Positions 1,138-53,442 of a stretch of 64,000 nucleotides of DNA are shown piece after piece. This DNA comes from Mesostigma viride (taxonomy: Eukaryota; Streptophyta; Mesostigmatophyceae; Mesostigmatales; Mesostigmataceae). Numbering within the stretch: the first letter of the stretch is position 1; the number at the start of each line of letters is the position of its first letter. The notes below the pieces were generated by a model. That model had not been told where the DNA came from, did no database searches, and worked only from the letters and a program-made list of their open reading frames with translations. Made by a program: the position numbers and the translations under genes. Location: assembly GCA_009746045.1 (NCBI GenBank), contig RPFO01000065.1, positions 8,184,741 to 8,248,740 of the forward strand, in the 5' to 3' direction.

Positions 1138-1286
1138 ATTAGTTCAAATGTTTCCGCGCCACTCCAGCACCGCGCCGCACAGCCCTAAGTCTAGCCAGTG
1201 AACGCGTCGAGCCGCATTTTTCACAATAATATTAAATAAGACAACTATAATTATTTAATGTTCAAGTACGTATATTATACTGATCA

Positions 1287-32202: not shown

Positions 32203-33744
32203 AGAAGGGATCTGATGGGAACATTTCACGAGGATCTGGATATCTGTGCTGCCATGGTTTCTGTGGTAGAGTGTGGTGCTGTCACAAGGGCACAGGCAGC
32301 TAACCAGCAAACCTCCAAGCTGAGTCCACCCCCTGTAGAGGCTATAGCTTTAGACTGTCACGAGATGCTCATTGACCAGGGCTCTGTCCCAGGGGCCAGG
32401 GTCGACAGGCGTCCAGGGTGGGGATCAGTCACTGCAGGGCAGTCTTAGGGAGGGTCCTGCTGGTAGCCAGTCCACTCTCACAACACAATCAAGCACAGAG
32501 AATCCTAGGAGGGGGAGGGGACGGCCCAGGAAGTGGATACTGGAGCCAGGGATGCTGTCCAAATCTAGAGGATTGGCAGCTGAGATCAAGGGGAAGTCAC
32601 GTACTGACCTGTGGCTGATGTTCTGTCATCCAAGCATCTAGTCACTAGTCACCTGCAGGAGGGTGAGGTGCTGCAGCTGCAGCCTTTAGGACCTGGCAAA
32701 CAGCTAGTCCTGCCTAACCCTATGAGTATTGCCCTGCATGCTGGACGTGATTAAGGCCTTCACTAAAACTGAGGACCTGGCCACTAAGGCCATTCAGGAA
32801 GGAAGCTTTGGTAACAGGCCTGTGGAGTACTGGGAGGGAGTCCTTTATGTCCACACCCAGGATGCAGATCATGTAGTGACCAGGAAGGTCTATGTGCCAG
32901 AAATGGCCATTCCCACTGTGTTGCATTGCTTCCATGACGACGTGACTGCGTGTCATCCTGGGTATGCTAAGCTTCTCCATGAAGTACAAGAGAGGTTTTG
33001 GTGGCCCATGGCATGTTTCGTGATATCAAAGCCTATGTGGCTTCCTGTGACTCATGCCAAAGGAATAATAAGGTTAGGACTCAGGCAGTGCCTATCTTTC
33101 CTATGGCCATGCCTATTCCCCTTCGACCCTGGATCAGTGTGACCATGGACTTCATTTGTGGCTTGCCTGTTTCTGATGCTGGCAATGACAGGATACTGGT
33201 GGTGATGGACAGGCTGTCTAGAATGTGCCATCTCATCCCCTGCAATGCCCATCTCACAGCTGCCCAGTGTGTAGAGTTGTTCATGAAGGAGGTGTACAGA
33301 CTGCATGGCATATGCCACGTGTAATCATCACTGACCAGGATCCCTTGTGGATGTCTGGGTTCTGGAAGTCCTTCTTTGACATCCTGGACACTAAGTTGGC
33401 CTTTGGAGTAGCATACAGGTGTGCCAGCACGGGGGCTGTGGAGAGGCTGAACCGTATTGTACGGGAATGCCAGAAGCACTATTGTACCCATGATAACAAG
33501 GAATGGGACAAGAAACTTCCCTTCATAGAGTTTGCCATCAACAACTCACCCCTGGCTCCTCACCAAATGTCTCCATTTGTCATTTGCCATGGCCAGTGCC
33601 CCTTGACTCCATTTGACCTGGAGTTACCTGACAGGGATGCTGAAGGCCCCTTCAGAAGACGCCTAACCTCTATCCACCAGCTGATAGCATCCTTCCAGGA
33701 AGCTCACAGTATGGTTGCTGCTCAGATGTTGCATGCACAGGACA
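32203..33744 (+). pseudogene. pol: gypsy pol, second part: linker and integrase
   Basis: The frame resumes right after insertion A. A short basic stretch, RRGRGRPRK (near 32500), resembles an AT-hook. The integrase HHCC zinc domain lies at about 32915-33060 (blocks HDDVTACHPGYAK and SCDSCQRNN). The catalytic core has its first Asp in VTMDFICGLP (about 33140), the second in TDQDPLW (about 33332), and the Glu in VERLNRIVRECQ (about 33440). At least three frame changes occur in the piece. It ends in LHAQD, where insertion B cuts the codon run at 33744. The segment 32460-32720 between RNase H and integrase is poorly conserved. Confidence 0.88.
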
Positions 33745-33817
33745 GGGTGGTCCCACGCGGAATGGGGTCATTTTTGGCGCATTTTGCAAGAAAAAAACGC
33801 TAGTTTCAATCGTCCGA
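33745..33817 (+). repeat. Left terminal inverted repeat of insertion B
   Basis: The terminus starts GGGTGGTCCCACGCGG and ends at CGTCCGA, and is preceded by GACA. It differs from the right end mainly by a small indel after GGAATGGGGT. Confidence 0.9.
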
Positions 33818-34038
33818 TATCTTTTTTTCGCGCGAATTTGGCGTCCGATCGCGTATTTTCGAGCTAATTTGGTGTCATAATGCTTAATTCATGTCAATTT
33901 GAGCGTACATTCCACATCGAGAGGCTTGAAAGTTAGTAATTCATGTAAATTTTACGTGGAGAGACTCGACATCATCCTAACCTTTGTATTAACCATAGGA
34001 CGAGCATTGCCAGCGCATGTCCAAGTGCTAACTTTCCC

Positions 34039-34601
34039 TCACACTTTCGAGGGCCTCTTCCGTAATTTCGCTTCCGCGATCTGCTGTTCCGTTTTCGAGT
34101 TCCTCCTCTTCTTATCGATCTCCTTTGTAGGCGCCCAGACTTCCACATCCTTCCAGCTCTTGCCATCCGTCAGCTTTACCACCTTCATCGCGTAGTCCAG
34201 CGGCATCCACCACAACTTGTTCTTCAACTTCCCTCCCTTCTCCCCCTCAGCGAAAAACTTAAATGCGACGTCCCTCCACTTGGTGTCGTATCCAGACACC
34301 TGCCCATAAAGCATGACGTCTTCTAGCTTGGCATACATTCGCGTAGCCGTATCCTTGTTCCCTGCTTGCATAATGGCTAAAGTCCACCCATCACACCAAA
34401 AGGCCTCTGGTGCTCCGAACCCCATTTCCCCGTCCATAAGTCTCATTTCCAACGTGGGCTTGTCATCATCCTCATCGCCCGCCTGACTGTCTTCCGCCCC
34501 CTTAGGCTCCTCCCGTCCGGAAGTGTCAGCATGTACAGCCGCTGGTCCGAAGCCCACCGCCACATTAGCCAAGCGAAGTAACTGCTCCACATCCTCATTA
34601 C
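34039..34601 (-). CDS. Last exon of the unknown insertion-B gene
   Basis: The exon starts after the acceptor GCTCGCAG on the minus strand and reads NEDVEQLLRLANVAVGFG to a basic C-terminus ending RKRPSKV. It includes the blocks FWCDGWTLAIMQAGN and WWMPLDYAMKVVKL. Final stop at 34039. Confidence 0.65.
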
Positions 34602-37600
34602 CTGCGAGCAAACCGATCATGCCATCAACGCATGACTAAAATCGAGTTAGTAGAAATCGGACTGCCAACCGTGAAAAATCAAAACACTCTACATACCAGA
34701 ATTCACTCGCAGATTTTTTCTTACCCTTTTTGGCCTTTTCCTTCGACCTCTGCTCGCAGGTAGACCCCGTCTGGGGGTGGGGGGCAGGCTCCGGGGCGGG
34801 TTTGGCGGGCTCGGCAACCTTGGCAGTCTTCGCGGTCTTGGGTAACTTCTTGGAAGCAACGCGCTCCTTTCCCCCGTCCTCCTCCTCTCCGCCGCCATCC
34901 TCCTCCTCCTTCTCCTCCTCATCGTCCGAATCTGAAAGCACAACTTCTTTTCGACGCCGTTTCTGAGGCAGGGCAGGCTTGGGAGGCTTCCCCACCTTGG
35001 CCGATTTCTTGGAAGCAACGTGCTCCGCAGCCTTCCCACCCTTGGCGGATTTCTTGGTAGCAACGTGCTGCTCCTCCTCCTCCTCCTCCTCCTCCTCCCC
35101 CTCCTCCTCCTCAGCATCGTCGTCCTCCTCCTCCTCCTCCTCCTCAGCATCGTCGTCCGAATCAGCCACTGCCACAACTGGCTTACGAAGCTGCTTCTTC
35201 GGTACCTGAGAAATGGCCAGAGTCGGCGGGGGAACCCGAAGCTGCTTCTTCGGTACCTGAGAACTGGGCAGAGGCGCCGGGGTGGGCAGAGTCGCCGGGG
35301 GAACCCGAAGCTGCTTCTTCGGAACCTGAAAAACGGGCTGCGACGCGGCAGGCTTGGAAGGCCCACCTCCATCATCCTCAACAAGTGACACGACTGCCCG
35401 TCGAGTCACTTGAGAAGCGGGCTTCTTCGCCGCAGGCGGATCCGAATCACCTTCAGGCCCCGTCCTCTGTTCGGCCTGCTGCGTTCTGACCTCGACGGGG
35501 GTCTCTCCGCGGTTAGACCCTCCTGCCGGACCTCCATCCCCTCCATCCCCTCCCTCCAACAACTGTTGGTCATCCCTCTCCACCACGGCGGACGATCCCC
35601 CAGCTTCGTGGGAAGCTTTTCGCTTCTTCGCCCTTCCGAGCCTAGGCCCCCCATCACCTTCCCCCTGTTCAAGCCGCTCCCACAATTCACTCCCTTTCCC
35701 GATCCTTTCCACTATCTCTTGAAACCCCTTAATCTCCGTCTTGGTACCAAACACGATCACCATCGGTTCGAACCTGGAGAAAAAGTCGTGGGCGCAAGCC
35801 TTCAGCACATTATCGTACATCCCGCCCGGTTGGGGAATGGACGAAGCTGTCGGGCAAGGACCGAACGCCCACCACCCTCTCTGAAAGTTACTCCACTTAT
35901 CACCCCAAATGTTCGCCAAGTTCAGCAGGCTCAGGCACGGAAGGGACCTGCCCAAGGGAAAGGGGCGGGCTGAAGCTGAGGCAACCTCGCCTGCCACCTG
36001 CTTGACGAGCGACTTGTCATCATCATCACCGTCTAGTTCCTGACAGCAAAACCAGACCCGGCGACGGCCCCAGTCCACACTCTGCCACTCATACTTCACG
36101 TCCCATTCCTCCTCCTCCTTCGCCTCCTCCTCCTTCTTCGCCTCCGTCTCCTTCCCCTTCCCCTTCCCCTTCCCCTTCTCCAGCCCCTTCACCGGCCCCT
36201 TCATCGCCGCCTCCTTCACCCCCCCTTCGAGTAATCCAACTTTTGGAGCGTACTTCCTGAACGCTTCCGGAGCCAAAAGTGCCAAACCCACCGTCTTGTC
36301 CTCGCTCTCTTTTAGCAGAATCTCCTGAAAGTCGATCTTGCCACTACTGAGATCCTTTCTCGGAATCCTCAGATGTGCGGCGTGTTTTTTGGCTTTAAGA
36401 AGGTAGGCGATGTTCCTCGTTATGATGACGGCCACATCCCAAAATTGCCGGTATCTGGCCACAATCTCCTGCCTGCCGACCGGCCGAAGGAGAGGATGGA
36501 GATTGAAGACGAGTTCGAAAATATGAGACGCCACAAACTCCTTGCCCTTTGCGTCCTTGCATTGCGCTTCCAGCGTCTCATCCTCCTTGAATCTGGCGCA
36601 AATGGTCAGCCGCAGGCACTCCAGCACATCCTTGGCGAACTCCACCAACTTGGTGAGCTTTTCCGGTCCAACCTGGCAGCTCATGATGCAATCGATCACG
36701 GCGTCCATCATAGGAAGGCTGGCCAAGTTCCTGAAAGCGGTCCAAGAGACCTTCTGGCCTTTCTTCTCCCCCTCTGCATTCGCGAATTTGCACCTTTGCA
36801 TCATCACCTCCTCAGGCGCGGGTTTCGTTGAGGCAGGATCATCAGTCTGCTCCTGTGTCAGACGGAGAAACGTGTTGGCCAGCGTGCGACTGTAAGCGGA
36901 ATGCACTGAAGCAATGCTGTGGGCCGGCTTTTTCTTTCCTTCTGCTTCCTCCTCGTGTACATCCACCGCTGCCGGCTCCACATTCCCTTCCCTTCCCCCC
37001 GCTTGCCGCATAGCCGGGAGGATGTACGTGAGCAGATTGGTGTAGTGGCCATCCGCAATATAGTGGCCCTTCCCACGCGTGACTTTGCCGTATAGATATA
37101 GCTTGTTGTAGTTCCACACGTCAAGCAACGCCTGGCCCAGCGTACGATCCGCCACGGCTAAGTCCTCCGAATTCGCCCCCTTGGCGATGTCGAACAGCTT
37201 CTCCAGCTTGCCGGTCAGCACCGCCTGCGACATCAATTAACATCGAGCGAGCAACGACAAAACTCAGTCATAAAAGGCGAGGGGTATAGCTGCGGATAGA
37301 CCCTAACAAAATTCGAAAAAGAAACGGCCGACAATACGCAACGAAAATTCCAACAAAAAAAAGGAGAGGGTCTAGCTGCAGCGAGACCCTCGCAAAAAAC
37401 TTGAAGCGCACACAAAAAACAACCACGAAAATTCCGAGGGTCTACCCGCAGCTAGACCCTGCCAAAATAGATAGCTTACATCTTCTTTTGCCTTAGGTAG
37501 ATTTCGAAGCTCACTCCACGACGGGAGCAGGTCGCCACCCTTGAGAAGAATGACGTTCGTACCCATGTAACCACCACGGAATTTCCGCAACAGGTCCTGG

Positions 37601-40600
37601 AAGGCGTGCTCCGCCTCCTTAGGAGTACTTTGCGAAATTGGACTCCGCCCCACCCTCGCACATCATTGCCCGAACCTCTCCCCACCCGCCATCCGGCCCC
37701 CTGAGAAACGACTTTAACCCCTTAAAGTAGTGGTTCCCATCCACCACCGCGTACCGGAGAACCAGATACGGTACCGGTACCCGTTCCTCAAAAAATTTCG
37801 GATCGTAGGACTTCATCGCAGTATTGCACAGCAGGTTGAAAACTTGCCGACTGCCCTCGATCTCCTGAGGCAAAACTGCGGCCACCTCGTCCACCTGGCG
37901 TAGGTACGCCACTCAAGTCCTCTCGCAGGAAAGAGGTGGTGGACTCCGTGTTAAGCCACACGTCGACTTCAGTATCCGAAAGGGGCCGGAAGTACCTGGA
38001 CCCCACATCCTCCGCGTCAATCTTGGCGCCGTGGTAATGCTTCAGCCACTTGACGAAATCCGGCATGCACAAGATTTGCTTGTCGAACAGGTCAGGTTGA
38101 GATTCGGCAAGCGCCTGGAAAGGGAACTGCCAGACCGGGACAACAACCTTGAAGTGCAAGGCGTTGTCCCGCGCATTGAGGAGAATGCGGGCCGTTCTCC
38201 TTAATGGTTTCAAGGTTTAAACGCCGCTGCCTCAAAGCCTCTGGCAAAATAAGCGCGTTGACCGTCTGGATCCGCATACTGAAACATCCGGTCTGCTGAA
38301 AATCGGCCGGCCGAATCCAACGCGTTTCCCTGAGAGAATTGGCCTTCCGGATGTTCTGGTCCCTGACCTCCTTGTTCGAGTCGACCTTTTTCGAAGGCTT
38401 CCAGCTTTCAATGATAGGGTCGGTGTCCGGGTTCCCACTGCTCGTGAGCACCCCCTCCTTAAAAAGCTTGTTGAGTGACCGGAGCAGCTCAAGAAAGGGG
38501 GAGAACTCGGGCCAGTTTGGCAGGTCATCGACGTCCGCCATCCGCCTACTCGAGCAGTACTTGAGCATATCCTTCACCAGCGCGAACACGGCGTCATGAC
38601 CAGGTAACTTCTTCTCCACCGTGGCGTCTTCGTCCCCCCCGTCATCCTGAAGTAAAAAATCGAAAAGGACCGCAGGATTTGCTCAAGTCAGTAATCTTTA
38701 GGCCGACCACGACATCCTGTTCAGGGACGAACAAAGTTCTGTTGGAATAGTACCTTACTGACACTAAACACCAAGTCCCGCAGCCGTCAGCGTCTACCCG
38801 CAGCGAGAGGTCTAAATTTTCACAACAATCGTACCTGTCCAGTTTTCTGCTGCTTCTTGGCCTCCTTAGCCTTCTCCTTCTCCGCCTTCTTCGCCTCCTT
38901 CTCCGCCGCCTTCGCCTCCGCGTTCTTCTTACTGTTGGCCTTTGCCACCGCATTCAGCGCCCTTTTTCCCTCAGCGGCCCGACGACGAAAATCAGCCTTC
39001 ATGAATTTCTCGATCTTGTCAACCTTTGCCTCTGAGTACTCCTTAGGCTGCCACTTGAAATTCTTGGTGGCTTTCGACTTCACCAGATTTGCGAATTCAT
39101 ATGCCAATTCACTCTTAAAGGTAGCGTCACCCAACACCTCCGTATCGAAATCGGCATCGACTTCCGCCTCAAGTCGTGTCAGGTACTTGCGAAACTCGGA
39201 CCCCGCAGGTCCCTCCGAATCGACGCCATCGGGCGGAGACTTAAGCATGATCAGGCCAACAGCAATAATATGATCCTTCGCAACCTTCTTGCGGGAATCC
39301 AGCTTTTCCCTTTCATGCTCAGTCAATGGGGCTTCGCCGCCTTCCCCCCCGCAGTACCCCCAGCGACAGCCCCCGCCTGCATGACAAAAAAAAACGAACA
39401 AGAAGGGACTTGACCTCAGTTCGATTGTTGCACCATCGTCTCTCTGCGGAGATACCCCTCAGCACGAAAAAAATCACACGAACTCGCGGCGGATGAACGT
39501 ACCTGCACAGCCACTTCTCCCTCAGCGTCTCCCCCATCCTCATCTCCTCCAGCGTTTTCATCCCCCCCATCCTCATCTCCTCCAGCGTTTTCTTCCTCTC
39601 CGGCAGCGCCTGCTGAGGCCAAACCCCCCGCCTGTCAACACCGAATACGACAGCTCATTGGAAATCAAAATTAGTCGACATTTGTATATTTCGCATAATG
39701 CGCTCACTAAAACTTCAGGCGAAATGCAGACATCCGGATATCGTTTAATGCTTACCATTTCCATCTCGAGTCCAGACCAAATACCAGCACTGTCAACAGC
39801 CATCGCCGCAGCCGCCCCCTGAAAAAAGACAACAGATTGGTTGGGGGCACCGTTGAAATTAGCCGAACATGTCAGTCTCAATAAAAGGGTGAGGGTCTAC
39901 CTGCAGCTAGACCCCATGTAAGATGCTCGTGGAAACTCGACGGACAAGCACCCACCTTATCAACCAAGTCTGACAAATTAGGTAAATCCTCCGATACGTC
40001 CCCTGGCATGGAGCCCCCCTGCATGATATGACAGGACAAACCATGAAGGTTGGTCAGCATATAGAGCCCTATTCAGGGAATGGAAACAACCCAAATCGAT
40101 AAACGATATCGGCAAGTTAACGTACCGAAACGTAGAACTTCCACCTCCTCAAAATCTTCCCCAAAGGCCATATCGGCACTTGATGGGCTCTCTCCTTTTC
40201 CAGTTGCCGCCTCAATTCCGCCTCGAAGAACAACTCGAGGGACTGCCAATGGCCTCCCGCCTCTAAATCAGACCACTCCGTGTCTGTCTTGGTTCGGATA
40301 CTCTGGAGACAATCAACCAACGAGATTTGATCCAACCATTCCTGGACGACTTCCCGGTATGGCTTATATGTCTGAATAACATGGAAGTCCTCCCGGTGCC
40401 GGAAACTTTGGATCACCTGTCCAGCCCAATCCAAAAAGAAAGCGACCGCTTCCCGCGAAAGGCTGGCGTCCGGGCTGACAAGAAAGTCAGTCCGCCACTT
40501 AACAAAAGATTGCAGTAAGTGGTCTCTTGCCATGTCCAAATGCGCGATCACTTCATGTGCGCGGCTCCTCCAATCCTCTACGTCATTCATTTCTTCCGGC

Positions 40601-42482
40601 ACAATTACGATATAGTCACTGTTGGACGTGTCAACAAATCCTTGCCTGACAATATCAAACACTTCATCTTCCGACAGTGAAGCCCTCGAATCCGCTCTCA
40701 TATCTCCAGTCATGAGTTTAAAGAGCTGATGCAACGCAGTGTTTTCAAGGTTTCCATATAGGAAGCCTCGATGCATGTGAAGCCAATGTGGACCTCGAAC
40801 TTTTCAACCTCATCAAAGAGCGTCGACCATATTAAAGGACGACGGAAAGTAACGTCCGACATCTCCTTCAGATTAAGGATGCACGACTGCGCGATCTTCA
40901 AACCTCATACATGTCGTCACCAACGACCCTCTTCCCATGAATGGCTCGCTGTGTGGCTTCGAACAATGCAAGACGGCCAGGCGCGTCGTTCTTCCAAATT
41001 ATGTGTGCCGACTCCGGACGGTCCACGACGACACCGGACTTCTCTGCAAACGTATCTCGCCGAAAGAAGCGGATCAAGCCTCTCAAGCCCTTTTCGGTTT
41101 TACGACTCACCCCAGCCTCCAGACTCAGTCTGAGCCAGGTACTGTTTCAGAATGGCCACCGTGGAGGGCTGCAGACAACAAGAGTAAAAAAAAGGCCACA
41201 CATCGTCATCGTCGTCGTCAACAACCTTAACTCCTAGGTCAACGTCTCTCCGCAGCTAGACCCTTACGATCAATGTATGGCATAAAATCCCACCTTTCTA
41301 CGATACACACACGCCGTTCAAGCCATCTGAAAATGTACGTCTTACATTAAAAACATACCTGATAATCGACTGAAAATCGTTCGTGAAGAAGGGGTGGGCT
41401 CCCGTTCTCGTCCTTCTCCCCCTCAACTGCCTTCGCAGCCTCCCCTCCTTCCTCGCAGCCTCCTCCATCTTCCTCGCGGCCTCTTCCGCCTTCATCCTCT
41501 CCTGTCCATCTGCAAAAAAGAGCGGCCTCCTCCGCAAGAATTCCCTTCGCTGCCGCCTCGTCTTCTTCTTCGCTCCTCCTTCTGCTTCGCCACCAGGTCC
41601 TGTGCTCCTTCTCCTGGGCAGCCTTTTTTCCTTTACTCCCTCTCCTCCTCCTCCCTCTCCGCCTTCTCCAGCCTCTCCTTCTCCTCCTCTCCACCCTCTC
41701 CCTCTCCGCCTTCTCGATGGCCTCCCTCTCCGCCTTCTCCTTCTCCTTGTCCTTTTGTCGAGAGCCGCGTATTCGTCAGCAAAGCTTGCGGCCATTAGCT
41801 AACAAATCGGACAACCGCTTCTTGACGCGATCCCGAACCGGCGATTCCGGGTCTTCAGGCCTCCCGTTAGTCTGATCGCGCTCGTCCTCCTCAACAAGCT
41901 CACTGATAGACTTCCTCAGCTTCTGAGCTCTTGGTGCGGTCGTCTTCCTCTACCCACTCGCCGCAGGCTTACGCTTAGACTGAATGCTTGGGGGACGGCG
42001 AGCGGGACGCAGCAGCGGGGACTTGCTGGTGGCGGCGAGCGGGACTTGGGGGAAAGCAGAGCGGGACGGCGAGCGGGTCGCAGTTGCGGGGTTCTTTGGT
42101 TGACGGCGAGGGGGACTTGCGAGAAGGAGAGCGGGACGCCAGGTAGCGGGGGAACTTTGGGCGGGAAGGGGGGACTTGCGGTTCGGCGAACGGGTCGCAG
42201 TTGCGGGGACTTTTGGGGACTTGCGGGGCGGCGCGGGACGCAGTAGCCTCCGGCCGACTTGGGGCGGCGATGGAGACTTACGGGGCGGAAACGGGACGGA
42301 GCGCGAGACGCAGCAGCGAGAGAGGTGGGGGGTATAATTCTGTCCAACTCGCTGGGGGCAAGTTGGACTTGGAGGGCGAGGGGGACTCGGTGGGGGGGAC
42401 CTCGCAAGACTTTTACGGGACCGAACTGCAACGAAGGAAACTCCTCCGTTGCGTTCGGCTCCGGCGAGGTGTTCGACGTCAT
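34039..42482 (-). CDS. Multi-exon gene of unknown function in insertion B
   Basis: On the minus strand coding segments with good splice borders follow each other from ATG 42482 to the stop at 34039: 42482-41916, 41795-41356, 41174-40125 (approximate), 40018-39956, 39818-39756, 39631-39503, 39376-38835, 38646-37480, 37224-34697 and 34601-34039. The 63-, 63- and 129-nt exons are in phase 0. The product would approach 1900 residues: a Pro/Arg-rich start, very charged K/E/R regions, and a large globular part with several Trp-rich blocks. A tail of acidic runs and repeated KKQLRVP motifs follows. A few single-base shifts, mostly in homopolymers, interrupt exons. I recognise no domain. It is divergent from the transposase gene across the central minisatellite and is presumably the element's second protein. 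Confidence 0.6.
34697..37224 (-). CDS. Large exon of the unknown insertion-B gene
   Basis: This is an uninterrupted frame of about 842 codons between an acceptor (GTCGCAG) and a donor (GTATGT). Its N-terminal half is globular, with WNYNKLYLYGKVTRG, FNLHPLLRPVGRQEI and RQFWDVAVIITRNIAYLL. The middle has a KGKGKGKG patch and WDVKYEWQSVDWGRRRVWF. After NLANIWGDKWSNFQRGWW it turns into disordered, K/E-rich sequence with KKQLRVPPATL repeats. No palindromic repeat lies inside this exon. Confidence 0.75.
37480..38646 (-). CDS. Exon of the unknown insertion-B gene (indels)
   Basis: The exon starts after the acceptor TTACTTCAG and ends before the donor GTAAGC. It reads as three frames joined by two or three single-base shifts. 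Recognisable coding blocks include DLPNWPEFSPFLELLRSLNK, PVWQFPFQALAESQPDLF and PDFVKWLKHYHGAKI. Confidence 0.6.
38835..39376 (-). CDS. Exon of the unknown insertion-B gene (coiled-coil end)
   Basis: Acceptor CATGCAG, donor GTACGA. After a G-run shift the frame reads PLTEHEREKLDSRKKVAKD and ends in a highly charged Ala/Lys/Glu helix (AEAKAAEKEAKKAEKEKAKE) before the donor. Confidence 0.65.
39503..39631 (-). CDS. 129-nt exon with a duplicated acidic motif
   Basis: This phase-0 exon of 43 codons is bounded by CAG and GTACGT. It contains ENAGGDEDGGD twice in tandem, which suggests an internal 33-nt duplication. Confidence 0.65.
39756..39818 (-). CDS. 63-nt exon of the unknown insertion-B gene
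   Basis: The exon lies between TTTTTTCAG and GTAAGC, in phase 0, and encodes 21 residues beginning GAAAAMAVDSAG. It has the same length as the neighbouring 39956-40018 exon. Confidence 0.6.
39956..40018 (-). CDS. 63-nt exon of the unknown insertion-B gene
   Basis: The exon lies between CATGCAG and GTGGGT, in phase 0, and encodes 21 residues beginning GGSMPGDVSEDL. Confidence 0.6.
40117..41174 (-). CDS. Exon of the unknown insertion-B gene (indels)
   Basis: The acceptor TTGTCTGCAG at about 41175 precedes STVAILKQYLAQ. After frame shifts the sequence reads KTEKGLRGLIRFFRRDTF, then PLIWSTLFDEVEKFEVHIGF, and a clean 219-codon stretch from 40776. That stretch includes HLLQSFVKWRTDFLV and FRHREDFHVIQTYKPYREV. 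The 3' border near 40117-40130 is approximate. Confidence 0.55.
41356..42482 (-). CDS. 5' exons of the unknown insertion-B gene
   Basis: ATG 42482 opens a Pro/Arg-rich segment with tandem PQLRPVRR/PQLRPARR and PFPPKVPP-like repeats (to about 41916). These are encoded by a GGGACTTGCGG-type minisatellite. A charged K/E/R segment follows to the donor GTATGT at about 41355, with one or more stops or shifts between. Which frame is used in 41360-41900 is uncertain. Confidence 0.45.
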
Positions 42483-42599
42483 CTTGGGTGAAACGGAGTG
42501 GCCTTGACAGAATCGGAATAGGAGGACGACATCTGCAGAACTATCAAAAAAGCAAGTTTTCACAATGTCATTCAGAATCTGAATCGCCGGCAGAAAAAC

Positions 42600-43079
42600 G
42601 ATGGGAGGGGTCTCGCTGCAGCTAGACCCTTTCGTGGATTCTAAAAGGACATTTAGTTTAATGCAAAACTTTGGCGTCTCGCTGCAGCGAGACCCTCACT
42701 TCAAGCAAAAACAAATCATTTTTAGGGTGAGCGTTAAACAAGCAACCTCCCATCATGCAAACATAAAAAAGTATACATTCCTTGGGGTCTCGCTTGCAGC
42801 GAGACCCTAACGTCAAACAAAAAACAAATAATTTTAGGGTGAGCGAAGGAAGCCCCTCCCATCTTGCAAAATTAAAAGTCGACATTCGTAGGGGTCTCGC
42901 TGCAGCGAGACCCTAACACCGATACAAAAACAAATCATTTAAGGGTGAGAAAAGAAAGACCCCCCATCATTGAAAAACATAAAAATTGACATTCCTTGGG
43001 GTCTCGACTGCAGCGAGACCCTAACGTCAATACAAAAACAAAATTCCGAGGGTTCTACCGCAGCGGACCCTTACGACCA
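42600..43079. promoter_or_regulatory. Upstream region of the minus-strand gene with six palindromes
   Basis: Six palindrome copies at spacings of about 50-110 bp sit in near-tandem units (palindrome, then CAAACAAAAACAAATCATTT-like AT-rich spacer). The block is where the promoter of the minus-strand gene should lie. Function is inferred from position only. Confidence 0.4.
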
Positions 43080-43735
43080 CGTATAAATAATGTGGGGGGG
43101 GAAGCTACGTATAAATCATGTGGGGGGGGATGCTATGTATAAATGCATGTGGGGGGTGGCTGGCATTAATAATTAAATGTGGGGGTGTGATGGCATGAAT
43201 AAATAAATGGGGGGGGTGCTGCCATGAATAAAGAATGTGGGGGTGTGATGGCATGAATAATGAATGTTGGGGGTGCTGGCATTAATAATTAAATGTGGGG
43301 GGGTGATGGCATGAATAAATAAATGTGGGGGTGCTGCCAGAATAAAAGATGTGGGGGTGATGGCATGAATAAATAAATGTGGGGGGTGCTGCCATGAATA
43401 AAGAATGTGGGGGTGCTGCCATGATAAAAGAATGTGGGGTGTGATGGCATGAATAAATGAATGTTGGGGGTGCTGGCATTAATATAAATGTGGGGGGTGA
43501 TGGCATGAATAAATAAATGTGGGGGGGTGCTGCCATGAATAAAAGAATGTGGGGGTGTGATGGCATGAATAAATGAATGTTGGGGGGTGCTGGCTTAATA
43601 TTAAATGTGGGGGGTGATGGCATGAATAAATAAATTGTGGGGGTGTGCTGCCATGAATAAAAGATGTGGGGGGGTGATGCATTAATAATTAAATGTGGGG
43701 GGATGATGGCATGATAAATAAATGATACGTGCGAT
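43080..43735. repeat. Central minisatellite, left arm
   Basis: About 22 units of roughly 30 bp on the pattern ATGTGGGGGGTGCTGCCATG followed by AATAAATA. Read on the minus strand, the unit core is GCAGCACCCCCCACAT, the core of the right arm. Confidence 0.85.
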
Positions 43736-46210
43736 CACCCCCCCACATGTATTGATAACGTAGGCATCACCCCCCACGTGTATTAATACGTAGCATCCCC
43801 CCCACATGTATTGATACGTAGCAGCACCCCCCACATGTATTGATACGTAGCAGCACCCCCCACATGTATTGATACGTAGCAGCACCCCCCCACATGTATT
43901 GAATACCGTAGATCCCCCAACGACATGTATTTGATACCGTAGCAGGCAACCCCCCCACATGTAATTGATACGTAGCAGCACCCCCCACACTTATTGATAC
44001 GTAGCAGCACCCCCCACATGTTTGATACGTAAGCAGCACCCCCCCACATGTATTGATACGTCAGCAGCACCCCCCCACGCTGTATATACCGTAGCATCCC
44101 CCCAACTGTATTGATACGTAAGCAGACCCCCCCACAATGTATTGATACGTAGCACACCCCCCCACATGTAATTGATACGTAGCGCACCCCCCCACAATGT
44201 ATTGATACGAGCAGCACCCCACATGTATTGATACGTAGCAGCACCCCCCACGTGTATTGATACGTCAGCAGCACCCCCCACCGTGTATTGATACGTAGCA
44301 GCACCCCCCACTGTATTGATACGTAGCGCACCCCCCACATGTATTGATACGTAGCAGCACCCCCCACATGCTATTGATTACGTAGCATCCCCCCCCCACA
44401 TGTATATTGATACGTATGCAGCACCCCCCACATGTATTGATACGTTGCAGCACCCCCACATGTATTGATACGTAGCAGCACCCCCACGTGATTGATCGTG
44501 CAGCACCCCCACATGTATTGATACGTAGCAGCACCCCCACTGTATCTGATACGCAGCACCCCCCCACGTGTATTGAATACGTTGCAGCACCCCCCACATG
44601 TATTGATACGTAGCAGCACCCCCCACATGATTTGATACTCAGCAGCACCCCCCACATGTATTGATACGAGCAGCACCCCCCACATGTAATATACGTATGC
44701 AGCACCCGCCCCCACGTGCTATTGATACGTAGCAGCACCCCCCCGTGTATTGATACGTAGCAGCCCCCCCCACAATGTATTGCTACGTAGCAGCACCCCC
44801 CCACATGTATTGATTTACAGCAGCACCCCCCCCATGTATTGATACGTAGCATCCCCCCCACACATGTATTGTACGTAGCAGCACCCCCCAATGTATTGAC
44901 ACGTAGCAGGCCCCCCACCATGTATTGATACGTAGCAGCCACCCCCCACCTACATGTCATACGTAGCAGCACCCCCCACGTGTATTCGAACTAGCAGCAA
45001 CCCCCCGACATGTATTGATACGTAGCATCCCCCCACACAATGTATGATCGTAGCACACCCCCCCACATCGTATTGACAACGTTAGCCAGCACCCCCACAT
45101 GTTATTGATAGTAGCCAGCCCCCACCACATGTATTGATACGTAGCAGCACCCCCCGTGTATTGATACGTAGCAGCACCCCCCACATGTATTGATACGTTA
45201 GCATCCCCCCCACACTTGTATTGAACGTTAGCCAGCACCCCCCAACATGTAATTGAATACGTAGCAGACCCCCCCACATGTATTGATACGTTTAGCACAG
45301 CACCCCCCCATTGATTTGATAACGTTAGCAGCACCCCCCACGTGTATTGATACGTAGCAGCACACCCCCACGTGTCATTGATACGTAGCAAGCACCCCCA
45401 CATGTATTGATACGTAGCAGCACCCCCCCCATGTATTGATACGTAGCATCCCCCCCATGTATTTGATACGTAGCATCCCCCACCACAGTATTTGATACCG
45501 TAGCAGCACCCCCCCACATTGTTTGATACGTAGCGCACCCCCCAATGTATTGATACGTGCAGCACCCCCCCACATGTATTGATATCGTAGCAGCACCCCC
45601 CCACGTGTATTGTTACGTAGGCGAAGCACCCCCCACGTGTATTGATACGTAGCAGCACCCCCCACGTGTATTGATACGTAGCAGCACCCCCCCTTGTATG
45701 ACCATACGTAGCCAGACCCCCCCAGCACTGTTATTGATAGTAAGCAGCACCCCCCCACATGTATTGATACGTTAGCCAGCACCCCCCCACGTGTGATTGA
45801 TACGTACGCAAGCACCCCCCACTGTATTGATACTAGCAGCACCCCCCCCATGTATTGATACGTAGCAGCCACCCCCCAGTATGATACGTCGCGCCACATG
45901 ATGAATCACGTAGCAGCACCCCCCCACATGTATTGATACGTAGCGCACCCCCCACTGTATTTTACGTCTGCACCTGGCACCCCCCACGTAGTATTGATAC
46001 GTAGCAGCACCACCTGTTACTGATACGTACGGACCCCATTATTGATACAGTAGCAGCACCCCCCCACATGTATTGATACGTAGCAGCACCCCCCCGTGTC
46101 ATTGATACGTAGCAGCACCCCCCACATGTATTGATACGTAAGAGCACCCCCCACATGTATTGATACGTAGCAGCAACCCCCCCACATGTTATTTGATACG
46201 TAGCAGCACA
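43735..46210. repeat. Central minisatellite, right arm
   Basis: About 80 units of roughly 30 bp on the pattern CCCCCCACATGTATTGATAC followed by GTAGCAGCA. Frequent one-base indels make the units ragged. The core is in the opposite orientation to the left arm, so the array inverts near 43735. Tyr/Gly/Cys-rich frames on the minus strand are products of the repeat. Confidence 0.88.
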
Positions 46211-47990
46211 ATTTTTAGTAGCTACCATCCACGTTGCGGCAAAAGATACCATTTTTTTGTTTCGGCAATAATGAAGATTTCTTGCAAACTATCGTCTATG
46301 CAGGAGGTAGCACGTCCGATGTTATAATCGGCAGGTAGCATGCAAACGTCGAAACGATATGAAGGGAAAAAAGCATCAAACAGGAGCACCGATTAGAAAC
46401 GCAGCAATGCGTATGTGCACATCTACACATTAACCTAACCCAGACCAACAGGCATAGCAAACCTGGAAGGGACCCAGAAACGCCAGCACACATGATCGAC
46501 AATGTGCGAGACCAAGAAACGCTCCTGGCAACAGACTTAAAGGATGGATGCCAGTGTGGATTAGGATCGGCTAAGCTGACTCTCCGAGATGCCTGCAGGT
46601 TTAGCTAGCAACGAAAGAGGAAGCAGATTTTTTATCACTCTTGCTGCTAACCATTAGAGTTCTCTGGATCGGCCAGCGGAACCATGTTGTCGCCAGTGGC
46701 TAATGCATGTTCGTCGGTCGTGCATAGCGTTTGTTTAGTTTGCCGGTTTTTTGATAGAACATTTTAGTTCAGCCTACCATCCAGATGCGGAAAGCATCAC
46801 TCTTTTTTTCGTTGTGCGGCTAAAGGCAGGACAGATTCAAACTTCCGGCACCAGGCAGGTATCAACGTAGGATTTTATAATCCAGCAGGTAGCATGCAAA
46901 CGTCGAAACGATATGGCAGCTCGTATCAGCTATGGGGTCTCTCTGCGGCTGCGCTTCTTTTTCGATGGGCGATGGGACGGTCGCAATTCGCAAACGGACG
47001 CGGCGTCACAGGGCTGAACGGTATTGAAAAAATTGGAAACGTGGCATCCTCGTTCCTCCCCACGGAACTGAAAACTGGAAGCGCGGCGCTGGTGCAAAAG
47101 CTCGATCCCATCTTTTGGAACCAAGCTAGCGGATTGGACGACATCCAATATGCCGTCACCCGTGCTTGTGGCCGCAGGTATAAAAAGAGACGACCTCCAG
47201 CCCATTTACCTGGGAACATTCGGATGTTTGGCTGACATCGTTACCATGCGTCAATGTACAATGAGGTTCTGGGTTCGATTCCTGGTGTGGTCATGGAAAT
47301 AAATTTTTTTCTGCACATCTACTGAAATCAGTCATAGCACCAAACAATCACGCTGCAGCGAGACGCTATAGCCCTGGAGCCGCTGATAAACCTGACATCC
47401 GGTACGTCTTACTATCATAGATTGCCGAACTATATAATAATAATAGTCTATACCACTTTTTCTTGTAAATGATTTACTAAATAATGATTCTATATACTTT
47501 AACATACCATATTATTAAAGTATGTGGAATTTAACCATGCTATTCACAATATATTATAAAATCTTTTGCAAAATATACTGTAATTAGTATATATATTTTC
47601 TGATAAACAATTTTATCAATGCTACTGTGTTATTTTTGTTATTCTCGCCATGCAGGTATCTGAGTGTTCTGGGAGAACTAATAAGAGAATGAGCCGCGAA
47701 GGTGAGGAAAACCTGAAATCTTTTCGTCCTTATTGGGGTCTCTCTGCAGCTAGACCATTTATAACCACAAGCAATAGCTTAAATTCAAGGGTCTCGCTGC
47801 AGCTAGACCCTCTTTATGGTTGCTATAAAATTAATGAATCAGAAGTCTGTGATTTAACAATCGCACGCCGCAATGAAGGGTCTAGCTGCAGCGAGACCCC
47901 AATCTTGGTCGGGGTATGCTAAGTTCACCACATCAGGTAATCTTTTCGTCTAACGGAAAAAGCCCCTCTAAGGGTCTAGCTGCAGCTAGA
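46211..47990. other. Region between minisatellite and transposase gene
   Basis: I recognise no gene. A direct repeat (GCAGGTAGCATGCAAACG..., about 31 bp) occurs at 46331 and 46885, with weaker similarity upstream of each. Palindrome copies lie at 46934, 47349, 47736, 47789, 47878 and 47972. At 47229-47240 and 47272-47282 the + strand has A-box-like TGGCTGACATCG and a perfect B box GGTTCGATTCC. An AT-rich patch spans 47400-47640. Confidence 0.5.
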
Positions 47991-48008
47991 CCCCAATCGT
48001 GGTAAAAA

Positions 48009-51000
48009 ATGATACACTTTCGAACTTTGTCTGTAATTGTCGCTTTTCCCAACGATACTCGATTTGCATGGATTTCGTTGTGCCGGTCGTCATGGCATGC
48101 AGCACGCGAACGGGTGGGAGTTTTCGCCCTTGCGTCCGGTCGTCCAGGATTCAGTGCAATTAAGTTGAACACCGGGACGAAGCAGTCAACTGGCGCAAAA
48201 AGGGTTTTCGGAGATGAGAACCAGAATCCAGCGCAGCCTGAAGCCAAGGAAGTCAAGCGGCCGGGAGAATACTCGAAATCAAAGAGGGTTATTGGGGAAT
48301 ATTTCGCTGACCAGGCGTTTGAAGCGGCTCAGGCGATGACAAAACCCGAGGGGCGGGGGCCGGCTTTCGACCAGATGATTGCTGGCTTTAACTCTAGGGC
48401 CGCTGAACTAGGTCACGGGAAGTATCATGAGGAGGCGAAAAAGCTTTACAATCAGGAGCGGATGGCAGAACTGAACAGGTTCTGGGTGGCTCGGATTAAC
48501 GGCTTTTTTGATGGTCTGACCAAAAGCGACGCAGACAGAGACGTCAGGATGGTGCTGATGTCCACGCTTTACTGTGGTGACGACTTGGAGAAGGAGTTTT
48601 CGGCCGCGGAGTTGGAGAACCTGACGGGGATGGACGCCAAGAAGATTCGCGGAATTCGCGCGATACGAAGGCAGCAGAAGTTGGACTACCTCAGACACGC
48701 GCAGGCTCGCAAGGGGCGCCCTTTGCCGCAATTCGTGATTGACGCGATAGTGGACGCGTGGATGCACGATGATGAGTCGCGCGCCTCCTCCCAGATGAAG
48801 GATGTCAAGCGCACTTACAGCAGGGAGGGTCGTGGCAATCACGGGGTGCTCGTCGCCGTTGAGGGAGCGCGCTATTACATGACCTCCAAGGAGGACATGT
48901 ACAATCACTTTCTCGAAAAGCATGCGTACTGGAACAAAAGGAGTAACCAGTATGATAAGGACGTGGGCATTCACGTGGGCTACACGACCTTCTGCAAATA
49001 CGCGCCCGATTGCATCAAGGGCAAGTGGAAGGAGAGGAACCTGTGCGCGTGTGAGAAGCACGTCACCATGCAGTCGGCCATGGGGGCGTGGACCAAGCAC
49101 TCCAATGCGAACCACGGCAAGAACTGCAAGTGTGGCGCGGAGTGTGCGGGATGCTCCAAGTACAGAGAGCCGGACGGTACTTGCGGAATGTGGAAAGCCA
49201 TTCACTCGACGGACTGGATCAAGCACTTTCACTGCCCGGTGTCCGCCGAGACTGACGGCAGGGATAACGGGCTGCGTGAAGGGGGCGGAATGGGCGGGGG
49301 GATGGAAGAGGGGGAGGGGGAAGATGAATGGCGGGGACGGGACCTGGAAGACCTCGACATTTCTGAGAGGCTGGTGGAGGACGAAGATGGGGTGCCGAGG
49401 ACGGAGAGGGTTCACCGCATACTGAAGATGGCGTGTGTGGAGGGGTTCTGTCCTGAGGAATCATGCGGCATCCATAATAACTGGGTGCAGTGTGATCGGG
49501 ACAAGAATTCCACGGAGATTCTGAATTGGTTCAAGTTCGAGATGGTGGAGCAGACTGTGACCCGACGGGTGAATGTGAGTTGGTTTCGATTTTATTTCTC
49601 CGTTAATATGTTGTTGACTTTTTTTTTTGTGACCTATAGCTGCAGCGAGACCCTTTGTGAGTTGCAGTTATCTTATCGAAATGCGATTTTATTGCAAATC
49701 GAAACTGTCTGCGGACCTTTGCGAAACAGGGCGAGACCGATGGCAGGGCGGCGAAGAAGGTGAAGCGGCCCGAGCAAGTCCAAATGAGGTCCACCCCAGC
49801 TGAGCTGCGGGACGAGATTCTTAAGATGTGGGACAAGTTCACCGTGCACTGCTTTACGGCCTGGTCGCAGGCGGATACAATCAAGGATCGGGAGAAGAAT
49901 CTGAGAGAGGGGGACGTGCTCGTGCACGGCGACTGGGCCGAGAACTACGAGAACAGCAGCTACGTCCAACTGCAGTCGCAGTACTTCCACAAGCGCAGCC
50001 ACATCCTGATGCCCATGATCGTGCGTTATCGGCTCAACGGCGAGCTGGAAAAGCGCGTCTTCTTTTTCCTGGGGGATTCCAGTATCAAGCGGGGCGAGCG
50101 CGCACTCGTATACGCTCTTCGCAAGATTCTGGAAACCCTGCGGGTAGAAGTAGGGGTAGAGGTGCGAAACCTGTACATGTGCTCGGACAACTGCGCGGTG
50201 CAGTTTAAGTCCAGGTACGTGATTAACCAGATTAACGGTCTGCTCATGGGGGATCCCGACCTGCAGGCCTTTGAGTTCCACTACATGGGGGAGCAGCATG
50301 GGAAGGGGGAGGTGGATGGTCAAGGAGCGAAGTGCAAGTGCGTCTTGAGGGAAATGCAGAGGATTCCCGAAAACCAGCACATACTTGAGACCCACCAGCT
50401 AGTCGCCTACTTGAACCAGAACTGGCAGGGCGGCAAGACATCGAGCAGGGAGTCGGCCCGCGCGCGGGCCGAGAACGTCACTCGCCACTTCTTCCTTTTA
50501 CCCCCGGTACGGAATTGTGTGTTATTTCAGGTTTTAAGACGTCAACTGCCGCTGTTCTATAAAAATTCAAACCCAATAAAGGTATCTCTGCAGAGAGACC
50601 CTATATACTGTCAATGGGTTGCTTTTCTTTTAGGTATGAAATTTCGCTTGTTCTATCGGTATGAAGGGGTCTCTCTGCAGCTATACCCTGTGTCGAATTT
50701 CGATCACTTGATATCTTGTCGTACGTTGTTATTATGATTCGAATGGGGTCTCTCTGCAGCTATACCCTGTGTCGAATTTCGATCACTTAATATCTTGTCG
50801 TACGTTGTTATTATGATTCGAATGGGGTCTCTCTGCAGCTATACCCTGTGTCGAATTTTGATCACTTGATGTCTTGTCGTTATTTTTTTTTTTAAGGGGT
50901 CTCTCTGCAGCTATACCCTGTTTTATTGATTTTTGGTCAATTTTGCTAACTTGAACGGTATTCTTTTTGCCCTAACTATTTGATGACAGGACGTCGAGTC

Positions 51001-51735
51001 CGGCCGACGCGCGGAGGTGAGGAGGTGCCTGGCATCAAGAAGGCGCATTGGTGGCGACTGGACAAGTCCGACCCTGGCCTTTTGATGATTAGGCGCTATT
51101 CCTGCTACTGTCCGCCCTGTTTGGCTGGGCGGTTTGAGGGATGTCTAAGCGAGTGGTCGTTTATCATCGAGTTCAATGATGCAGGAAGCTCGATGAAAAC
51201 TGTCCGTTTGCTGCCACCGAGCCAGCCCAACCCTCCGGTTCGCATGGTGACGCGGGGGGAGCAGCTGAAGGACAAGCGGGAGGCGATGGGCCGGCAGATG
51301 AGACTCCACGACTATGTGGCAGTTCCATCGGACAAGGACACGGATCACGATCCCATCCACCCGTTCTGGTTGGCTGAGGTTGTAAGCGAAGCCGGGCCGA
51401 TCGTGTTAGACGAGAACTTCGAGAGGTGGGTCGAGGGCCGGAACGGACGGGAGAAGGAGCTGTTCCTCGCCGGGAACGGCATTCTTCCCGTTCGGATTTG
51501 GAAGCGGGATAAGCATGACCCCCTGCATTTCACGCTCAACGTTGAGGATTGGCCACCGTCACGCCAGCCCGAGCTTGTGAATTGCTATCTCTGCGTCGCT
51601 CCGGCTCTCCGGCTAGAAGCACGCGTGCGCAGCGACGGAATGTGTGCCGACATCAGGATGAGCAAGGAGCTCGACAAGTGGCTTACTGCGCTGGTGATCA
51701 AGGATGAAGCCCCGGAGGGGCCGGCACCGACTTAA
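48009..51735 (+). CDS. Transposase-like gene of insertion B (three exons)
   Basis: Exon 1 ends at 49568 and exon 2 runs 49730-50506. Exon 3 starts near 50990 and stops at 51735; its border phase is unresolved. The intron 49569-49729 is GT...AG and phase 0. Exon 1 carries two cysteine-rich clusters (CKYAPDCIKGKW...CKCGAECAGC and CVEGFCPEESC), likely zinc-binding DNA-recognition modules. Exon 2 has a DWAENY block (from 49931), MCSDNCAVQFKSRY (Asp at 50186) and QHGKGEVDGQG (about 50296), the order of acidic residues of an RNase H-fold DDE transposase. From memory, a family of uncharacterised transposase-like proteins shares DF(A/S)ENY, SDG..SQYKN and HGKG..DG. Exon 3 adds a Cys-rich motif (RRYSCYCPPC). 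The start at 48009 is a guess; an upstream exon is possible. Confidence 0.75.
49569..49729 (+). other. Intron 1 of the transposase-like gene
   Basis: The intron is 161 nt, with donor GTGAAT and acceptor GAAACAG, and joins two frames in phase 0. It contains a half palindrome, CTGCAGCGAGACCC. Confidence 0.75.
50507..50989 (+). repeat. Intron 2 of the transposase-like gene, with 79-bp tandem palindrome units
   Basis: The intron holds one palindrome at 50581, then four copies starting at 50667, 50746, 50825 and 50897. The first three are parts of a 79-bp tandem unit (palindrome plus GTCGAATTTCGATCACTTGA and spacer). The donor GTACGG and acceptor GATGACAG do not give matching phase as read, so one border or one base is wrong. 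Confidence 0.65.
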
Positions 51736-52556
51736 ACAAGAAATTGGGGTCTCGCTGCGGGTAGACGACGCCCTAGTTTCGGCTCGTATTATATCTTTAG
51801 AGTGGGGCTTCAGTAGGGTGTAAAAAGGTGGCCGCATATATTGTATATATTTTTCGAGATCTTTCTGAGGTCAAGTTTAAGGGTAGTTGATAATTTTTTG
51901 CGGCCTTCAATTAACAGTTATTTTTTACTGCAACATAATTTTATGCTGTATATTTAAATAATGATAAGGATTTCGATATTTTTTTGCACAATCTATTCGA
52001 CATTTGTTTCTGCATGTCGAGAATTTATTGCTCCACCCCCACAAAAAAAATCGTTCCGGAACTGTTCGAAGCGAATAGCACTGACAGGATTCGAACCCGG
52101 GTCCACCTTAATGTTCGGAGTGAGGTAGGCCAGCCATCATGTTCCGCACTCAAATCTGGCTCGGGTCCGATCCCTCCATTGCTCTTCGCTTCGAACAGCT
52201 CCGGAACAAGTTAGGTGTGGGGTTGGAGCAATAAATACTTATTTGCCGGGCGCAGTTGTCATTCCGCCTAGTACAATTGCGTCACTAGTACAATTTTTGT
52301 CTGGGTACGGTACGAACCAATAACGCAATATTTAGTATCTAATCGCCGCTGCTCTTGCTGAATTTTATCCGGAAGCTGAAAAAGGTGTCCGGTGAAGCGA
52401 ATACTAGTGACTGGTGGTCGTGCCCTTCCATTACTCCTTATCGACAAATTTTGGGTTCTACCTGCAGTTATAACCCTTGCGCGTCTGGCTGTCGGGGTCA
52501 CCAATTTCCTGTCGATTGCAAGCAGCCAACCTTGCCGAAATTTAACACTGTCACAA
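51736..52556. other. Non-coding region with a 212-bp inverted-repeat element
   Basis: A degenerate palindrome follows the transposase stop at 51747. At 52024-52235 an element has imperfect inverted ends of about 55 bp (TTTATTGCTCC... and GTTCCGGA.CTGTTCGAAGCG). Its interior has a minus-strand B box GGTTCGAATCC at 52087-52097. A degenerate palindrome is at 52453. No gene is seen. Confidence 0.6.
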
Positions 52557-52994
52557 ATGGAGCAGAGCAATATTTTCGGTTCTCAGCATACCTATGTGAT
52601 GGTCGACAAAAATGAGCACGCTGCAAACATCAGAATTGATGTAGAGTTGCTCGGACCTTCTGCACAGTGGGGTGCAGGTGTCATTGCGTTCGGCAATGGC
52701 ATGATCGATCTGGTGCCACCCGATTCAGATTTGAACCCTGCTTACCAATGCGTGCCTGACAATCAGGCGAGAGTGGTGGTGGAGAGCACGGAAATTCCGG
52801 GCTCTCCCAATGTATCAATGATGCGCCTGAGGGCCGAGGCCCAGCAGGAGTTCCTGGCTGCTGCGGAGAACGGCGGGGCCAAGTGGAACACCAAAATGTA
52901 TACAGGCGAGCCTCCCAACTACAGGGGAGACCAGTACCAGGGAGTGTACTCCTTCGGCGATTTTGACATCGACGGATGGGGCACCTTTTTCTAG
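52557..52994 (+). CDS. Short unknown frame near the right end of insertion B
   Basis: ATG 52557 opens 145 codons starting MEQSNIFGSQHTYVMVD and ending YSFGDFDIDGWGTFF. The residue mix is that of a real protein (GPSAQWGAGVIAFGNGMIDL). It could be a small accessory protein or a further exon; a possible ATG lies 165 bases upstream in the same frame. No family is recognised. Confidence 0.45.
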   Translation: MEQSNIFGSQHTYVMVDKNEHAANIRIDVELLGPSAQWGAGVIAFGNGMIDLVPPDSDLNPAYQCVPDNQARVVVESTEIPGSPNVSMMRLRAEAQQEFLAAAENGGAKWNTKMYTGEPPNYRGDQYQGVYSFGDFDIDGWGTFF

Positions 52995-53378
52995 GCGCAA
53001 TGCCTAAGTTGTCAAATACTCCGACAATGTCAAAATTGCGAATGATAAAATTACGGACATGTGCACATATATGTACTGATTCAATAAAAACTTTCGGCAA
53101 TTTTGTTCCCGGCATTGATAATCAATAGCTGCTAGCAAGCCAAGGACTTCAAAAGTGGCAATAGATCGATGTAGGTCGTCGATAAACTTGTCTAGTCGTC
53201 ATATTTCGGTCGCAAAATTCGTGCGTGGCCTGCAGGCATCGGACAAAGTGCACGCAACAGCAGGAGTCGGTTGAGTTCGAAGCACGGCAGACACAAAATT
53301 TCGGCGCAAAGTCCGTCGGGCGAAAAATTCGCTCGGCTGCCAAATTTTCGGCAAGAATTTCGGCGCAATGTCCGGTTT
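52995..53378. other. Right subterminal region of insertion B
   Basis: No gene is seen. The words AAATTTCGGC and AAATTTTCGGC recur near 53298 and 53342, next to CGGCGCAA words, and may be subterminal protein-binding repeats. Confidence 0.4.
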
Positions 53379-53442
53379 TCGGACGATTGAAATTAGCGTT
53401 TTTTTCTTGCAAAAATCTACCCCATTCCGCGTGGGACCACCC
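53379..53442 (-). repeat. Right terminal inverted repeat of insertion B
   Basis: This is the reverse complement of the left terminus and is followed by GACA. The gypsy integrase reading resumes at 53447. Confidence 0.9.

Follow-up and report, generated by a model that had tools for sequence, protein, structure and literature searches.

In the genome of Mesostigma viride (Streptophyta), we identify a giant DNA transposon and, dispersed through its non-coding DNA, a repeated palindrome by which it may recognise its own copies. The element occupies positions 33745-53442 (19,698 bp) of a 64,000-nucleotide stretch of contig RPFO01000065.1 (assembly GCA_009746045.1; the whole stretch is hereafter called the window), where it is inserted in a gypsy integrase gene. 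It belongs to a recently amplified family of terminal inverted repeat (TIR) DNA transposons, giants of about 19.5 kb and up that generate 4-bp target duplications. The family has at least two subfamilies; in both, a transposase gene on the plus strand is followed by a small third gene, and the minus strand carries a huge gene (the accessory gene). The palindrome is nearly confined to this family, with about 25 repeats in non-coding DNA that are clustered before both divergent genes and in introns. Our best explanation as a whole, a transposon with palindrome-based self-recognition, seems to us evenly balanced between being right and being wrong.

A young transposon family with exact borders

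The ends of the element are imperfect inverted repeats (73 and 64 nt) that share their initial 24 bases. Their local alignment scores 89, against a maximum of 30 in 1000 shuffles. The original prediction, made from the letters of the window alone, had proposed TIRs of about 65-70 bp and a GACA duplication, and both are present, the latter on both flanks. It had also proposed that the gypsy integrase frame is rejoined when the element is taken out. When the element and one GACA are removed in silico, an open integrase frame does span the joint; the gypsy target has frameshifts also, away from the joint. We searched for empty sites in the 439.9-Mb assembly that contains the window (2,243 contigs). 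All match counts from this genome are lower bounds, taken from the best-scored matches out of larger candidate sets. The joined flanks (160 nt) match over their full length in 40 of the 40 places scored (the best 40 of 278 candidates), seven of them at 100%. Thus, uninterrupted copies of the target exist, which means that the target is a repeated gypsy element and that the insertion was exact.

Exact 4-bp target duplications are found at 12 of 14 distinct insertion sites of the family, without evident preference (GACA, TAGG, AAAA, GCTT, AACA, GGTT, CGCA, GGCG, AGCT, CGGA, TTCG, and ATCC). For six of the 14 sites the comparison was made by eye on printed flanks, and C323 and C224 2489380-2505487, which have one site in common, were counted once. 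The other two sites are C224 638694-697078, which has a 5-bp duplication (TGGCA) and a span that holds two transposase cores, and C382, which has no duplication and a left flank common to another insertion. The TIRs, target duplication, and empty sites together indicate transposition with 4-bp staggered cuts, and the element is almost certainly a cut-and-paste TIR DNA transposon.

Searches with the terminal sequences, a check suggested by the original prediction, recovered many further copies. The left end (first 77 nt) is 100% identical in all 40 places scored (the best 40 of 467 candidates), as is the right end (101 nt) in 40 of 41 scored matches (479 candidates). For the transposase core (exon 2), 147 matches were scored out of 730 candidates, at least 123 of them at 91-100% identity and at least 24 at 68%; at least 59 of the former have an identical top score. 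Exon 1 gave 83 scored matches out of 1,126 candidates, at least 49 with an identical top score. Pairing the listed ends yields 20 end-to-end spans of 16.1-58.4 kb, 12 of which measure 16.1-25.4 kb. The 16.1-kb span contains an assembly gap, while the longest spans probably hold nested DNA or two elements. The predicted giant TIR transposon with exact borders is thus confirmed, as a member of a young multi-copy family.

Among eight aligned copies, seven share 99.1-99.8% identity with one another and 97.7-98.1% with the window copy. Private to the latter are 240 substitutions and numerous small indels, which cluster at 40.2-47.2 kb in what looks like an unpolished assembly or a decayed stretch; its divergence of about 2% may reflect the assembly and not biology. 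Elsewhere (C557:402085-402553), two family copies lie back to back, with their left ends facing outward around a 468-bp spacer.

The group of cores at 68% identity represents a second full-length subfamily (B, the first being A), which keeps the divergent genes and a size of 19.6 kb. A subfamily B element in C685 ends at 4932 and 24552 (19,621 bp), with AAAT on both sides (read by eye) and inverted ends, beginning GGCCGGGCCCACTTCGAATG, that are identical over 26 nt. Its core (21295-22059) and accessory last exon (5229-5738, 55% identity) are arranged divergently, as in A. The TIRs of A and B have 14 of 20 bases alike, a value equalled by 9 of 100000 shuffles. Amino acid identity between A and B is 67% for exon 2, 61% for exon 3, and 65% for the third gene, with ratios of nonsynonymous to synonymous substitution rates (dN/dS) of 0.25, 0.27, and 0.29, respectively; these three are therefore under purifying selection. 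The B sequence used for dN/dS, L176 (C557:546927-553926), is an odd short copy whose core score equals that of the other 23 B matches. There, exon 2, exon 3, and the third gene (L176:1971-4932) lie between inverted repeats GGGACAGACGACGAGTTAA, with an inverted repeat directly at the exon 2 acceptor and with neither exon 1 nor the usual TIR, as in a captured or rearranged fragment.

A dispersed 22-bp palindrome

A comparison of k-mers between the interior and exterior of the element revealed a degenerate 22-bp palindrome, GGGTCTNGCTGCAGCNAGACCC, which has no loop between its arms. Allowing up to 6 mismatches, the window element has 26 sites, 25 of them in its 5.8 kb of non-coding DNA and one in its 10.7 kb of coding DNA; other aligned copies have 26-28 sites each. 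The 44 kb outside the element have no site at up to 5 mismatches and three at 6. Shuffled elements average 0.01 sites at up to 4 mismatches and 0.64 at up to 6. Across the genome there are 1,363 exact sites, compared with none for the reversed control, and among 50 listed exact sites, 47 have a listed family landmark at a distance of 20 kb or less.

With up to 6 mismatches allowed, 1.75 kb of the window element precede the first site on the left, and about 1 kb follows the last on the right. Clusters stand upstream of both divergent genes and in intron 2 (Table 1), one palindrome lies 100 bp before the third gene, and further ones occur in introns. Intron 2 of subfamily B opens with a near-identical palindrome in the same place (20 of 22 bases), and the rest of that intron is unalignable. 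Subfamily B also has a variant of its own, GACGCTCCGCAGCGCCACCC, with 135 genomic sites (control, 0), which occurs twice beside 23 of the 24 B-type cores. We found no description of such a transposon family, or of such palindromes, in openly licensed papers.

Genes of the element and neighboring sequence

The original prediction recognized a transposase-like gene on the plus strand. It comprises three predicted exons (Table 1) whose joins, as read from the splice sites, are all phase 0; in two of the eight aligned copies, that of the window and C323, exon 3 is shifted by one nucleotide from the frame of the remaining six. We infer that the 1,030-amino acid product is a DDE/D enzyme, which would be responsible for cut-and-paste movement of the element; copies may also receive help in trans. 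The candidate catalytic acids in exon 2 (exon numbering) are Asp68 (GDWAEN), Asp153 (CSDNC), and Glu194 or Asp196 (HGKGEVDG), and all sit in motifs kept in subfamily B. Similar GKG..DG motifs presumably occur in unnamed animal and oomycete proteins, which serves as a lead and not as a test. A PDB sequence search with the transposase gave no match at E up to 1, and Pfam, NCBIfam, and PHROGs returned no family above cutoff for the parts scanned. The single-sequence structure model of exon 2 is too poor to use [mean predicted local distance difference test (pLDDT), 38]. Searches of viral contigs with exon 1, exon 2, and a stretch of the accessory gene gave no relatives. A 16-nt word from the TIR has 5 matches in viral contigs and 95 in prokaryote genomes, which we ascribe to chance: none extends past a score of 42, far under the TIR's own.

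Table 1. Features of the transposon and its borders. Positions are those of the window.
Feature	Position	Strand	Basis or remark
Target site duplication, left copy (GACA)	33741-33744		GACA on both flanks
Left TIR, 73 nt	33745-33817	+	Alignment of both ends; first 77 nt at 100% elsewhere
Giant accessory gene, about 2,400 amino acids if spliced as inferred	34039 to ~42482	-	Open reading frames (ORFs); start codon uncertain
Accessory gene exon blocks (about)	34039-34605, 34710-37221, 37489-38642, 38833-39375, 40121-41168, 41360-42482	-	GT-AG sites
Three small accessory gene exons	between 39503 and 40019	-	GT-AG sites
Five palindromes upstream of accessory gene	42608-43042		Mostly in 106-bp tandem repeat, 3.4 copies, 42671-43042
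Minisatellite, units of about 29 bp, inverted arms	43083-46209		Between divergent genes; length varies between copies
Four palindromes	47736-47993		Up to 273 bp upstream of transposase start codon
Transposase exon 1, 522 amino acids	48009-49574	+	Cys/His-rich segment; open in 8 of 8 copies
Transposase exon 2, 259 amino acids	49730-50506	+	Presumed DDE/D core, catalytic role inferred; conserved in A and B
Five palindromes in intron 2	50580-50918		Four in 79-bp tandem repeat; first also in subfamily B
Transposase exon 3, 248 amino acids	50990-51735	+	Out of frame by one nucleotide in window copy
Third gene, 145 amino acids	52557-52994	+	65% identical in subfamily B
Right TIR, 64 nt	53379-53442	-	Alignment of both ends; 101-nt end at 100% elsewhere
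Target site duplication, right copy (GACA)	53443-53446		GACA on both flanks

The very large (about 8 kb) minus-strand gene, divergent from the plus-strand gene, is likewise present as predicted, with frameshifts in the window copy. Its frames are broken at places that differ between copies, and every compared copy has some break (assembly or decay), while open versions of each large exon are present among the copies compared. The earlier claim of an autonomous element is therefore doubtful for the frameshifted window copy, even though open exons are found in other members of the family. The last accessory exon has at least 150 scored genomic matches, 13 of them at 55-56% identity. Across the genes of the element, weak Pfam matches to RecQ_Zn_bind (E = 0.07), SIR4_SID (E = 0.55), and Bromo_TP (E = 0.17) fall under the curated cutoffs. 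A ParB-like assignment, made by eye from VVDGNHYFKG, was rejected, as Pfam gives that exon only a sub-threshold match to Nrap_D6 (E = 0.24). PDB matches to an RNA polymerase chain (E = 0.0085) and a transcriptional regulator (E = 0.034) are short and borderline, and we take them as chance.

The element had been credited with two genes only; a third, behind the transposase gene, is conserved in the second subfamily. It has no Pfam, NCBIfam, or PHROGs family above cutoff, and its structure model has a mean pLDDT of 44. The inverted minisatellite that had been reported between the divergent genes is found there. Positions 52021-52241 contain an inverted repeat around a minus-strand stretch that resembles the T-arm of a transfer RNA (tRNA). 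ARAGORN finds no tRNA at this place, and the window as a whole has no match in Rfam or tRNA scans; it is possibly a small tRNA-derived insert or one like a miniature inverted-repeat transposable element.

Outside the transposon, near-identical direct blocks at 18.5-21.4 kb and 28.2-31.1 kb, about 9.7 kb apart, share ORFs (e.g., 19917-21194 and 29623-30900) as well as a 24-bp palindrome (at 21421 and 31127); they are perhaps long terminal repeats or a duplication. An ORF resembling those of long interspersed nuclear elements (LINEs), with a reverse transcriptase domain (Pfam RVT_1), lies at 1284-4082. Tandem-repeat ORFs at 15.1-15.8 kb and 23.1-24.3 kb read ATQPRSHA on one strand and CVAAWLRG on the other.

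Affinities, proposed self-recognition, and its alternatives

The original prediction took eukaryotic cut-and-paste elements to be usually a few kilobases long, with one or two genes. Elements of the present size are not without precedent: according to the accessible part of PMC12477816, giant KDZ, EnSpm, and Sola-1 transposons of Ectocarpus exceed 10 kb and reach about 30 kb, and a 31.7-kb KDZ element, cited there, is actively transposing in Chlamydomonas. Like the window element, these giant algal KDZ and EnSpm transposons (10-30 kb) carry accessory genes (PMC12477816, same part). Quite possibly, with a probability just short of even, the window element, judged by published descriptions, is a giant Sola element (probably Sola-1) and not a new superfamily. 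In favor of this are the 4-bp duplications, the long transposase, and an architecture like that of the 21.5-kb Sola1-1_Ec32 of Ectocarpus, also a giant eukaryotic DDE-type DNA transposon, whose large accessory gene lies on the strand opposite the transposase (PMC12477816, accessible part). However, the accessory protein of Sola1-1_Ec32 has 1,104 amino acids with ParB-like and DNA-methyltransferase domains, whereas that of the window element would have about 2,400 and has no Pfam match above cutoff. Furthermore, the accessible part of the description mentions no dispersed palindrome (PMC12477816), while the window element has about 25. Sola2 makes 4-bp target duplications that are AT-rich (PMC3627910), but 25 of 52 duplication bases here are G or C. 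Since giant algal transposons are already known, we count this as a new family within an established kind, with an unusual self-motif system. Membership in KDZ was rejected because its described duplication and motif features do not fit; both KDZ and EnSpm are taken to differ from the window element in duplication length and transposase type.

A motif of similar layout is described for VANDAL21 (Hiun) of Arabidopsis. The accessible part of PMC5735166 reports that VANC21 binds YAGTATTAY, which is enriched in the introns of VANDAL21 and in its intergenic and upstream DNA; that DNA methylation is lost through the action of VANC; and that VANC motifs spread by tandem repeats and differ between related families. 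VANDAL21 and the window element both have three genes and a family-specific motif that is placed in this way, amplified in tandem repeats, and different between relatives (PMC5735166, same part). Enrichment in the non-coding DNA of its own element is found for the palindrome, and tandem-repeat spread with subfamily-specific variants is found in part, some palindromes lying outside tandem repeats. The window element is not a VANDAL: VANDALs are Mutator-like, and its transposase is of another type. MuDR-type duplications are 9 bp (PMC3627910), whereas those of the window family are 4 bp. It may, by analogy, work like a VANDAL.

On this model, an element protein, most likely the giant minus-strand product or that of the third gene, would bind the palindromes as a dimer and coat the element. 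The bound protein would allow the element to recognize its own copies, regulate its own genes, and counter host silencing, as VANC does on VANDAL. A self-recognition protein that binds palindromes is suggested by the motif layout, which is the same as that of VANC21 targets, and a dimer is favored because the dyad has no spacer. Judging from these sequence features, we give the palindromes an even chance of being sites for an element-encoded protein. That their purpose is anti-silencing is a more doubtful proposal, drawn from the VANDAL analogy. Equally tentative is the full scenario, in which a giant non-Mutator transposon would have independently invented a VANC-like code, its protein binding a subfamily-specific palindrome in the introns and promoters of its own copies, keeping these unsilenced, and so permitting more than 100 near-identical copies.

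Base composition bears on silencing. The observed/expected CpG ratio of the element is 1.11 in non-coding and 0.89 in coding DNA. Two gypsy stretches have ratios of 0.40 (10.4-14.4 kb) and 0.24 (31.5-33.7 plus 53.4-54.5 kb), with an excess of TpG/CpA; in sequence terms, this is a sign of gypsy CpG methylation in the host. The composition of the element fits, but does not prove, anti-silencing.

Several observations weigh against self-recognition. A young or newly arrived element would show the same CpG composition, and the lack of depletion is not specific to the element: ratios in other stretches are 0.80-1.06 (LINE-like ORF, 0.83; 18.5-21.2 kb, 1.06; 57-60 kb, 0.99). No DNA-binding domain or family was found in the accessory gene, third gene, or transposase with Pfam, NCBIfam, and PHROGs, the latter two scans covering some, not all, accessory exons; the limits of these exons were placed by eye from GT-AG sites. 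The VANC21 motif is about 9 bp, non-palindromic, and in one orientation (PMC5735166, accessible part), whereas that of the window element is a 22-bp palindrome. Finally, for three of the 50 listed exact sites the nearest family landmark is 33 kb away, and the palindrome in coding DNA would be joined by a second if the accessory gene starts further upstream.

Alternatively, the giant transposon might be an ordinary one, with palindromes that host factors read as cis-regulatory or splicing signals, such as promoter elements or intronic pre-mRNA hairpins. The clusters before both divergent genes, the site before the third gene, the presence of a palindrome in most examined introns, and the like placement of the first intron 2 palindrome in A and B would all suit such signals. 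A host code would, however, be expected at host genes too, yet nearly all listed exact sites are near the family, and the flanks are free of sites up to 5 mismatches; the absence of a loop also points to a DNA-binding dimer more than to a hairpin. We consider this alternative unlikely.

Still less probable is that the palindromes are transposase binding sites for assembly or regulation of the transpososome. Spm/CACTA elements have subterminal TnpA motifs, and the palindromes are similarly element-specific and repeated; yet a dense subterminal array would be expected, and the sites are spread through the interior, starting well over a kilobase from one end and about 1 kb from the other. No better placed, and to us improbable, is a passive origin, from drift in tandem repeats or from tiny insertions of hairpin or introner type that spread by chance inside the element and were kept by its amplification: part of the palindromes do lie in tandem repeats, and positions are common among the copies of one subfamily because these are young, but 25 of the 26 sites are non-coding, one site is alike in A and B within an otherwise unalignable intron, and the B variant recurs at its many sites, which suggests maintenance. 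Nor did we observe palindromes that had moved to new positions.

It is an open question how very large DNA transposons keep their activity where the genome silences repeats. Even without self-recognition, the family is a documented case of a giant element whose three genes are conserved and whose cut-and-paste borders are precise. It is also suited to a direct test of self-recognition, having dozens of copies with identical transposase exons, two subfamilies with distinct motif variants, and a silenced-looking gypsy neighbor to serve as control. If the palindromes are a self-recognition code, then sequence-specific anti-silencing would not be peculiar to plant Mutator elements, and DNA transposons would be able to invent it time and again.

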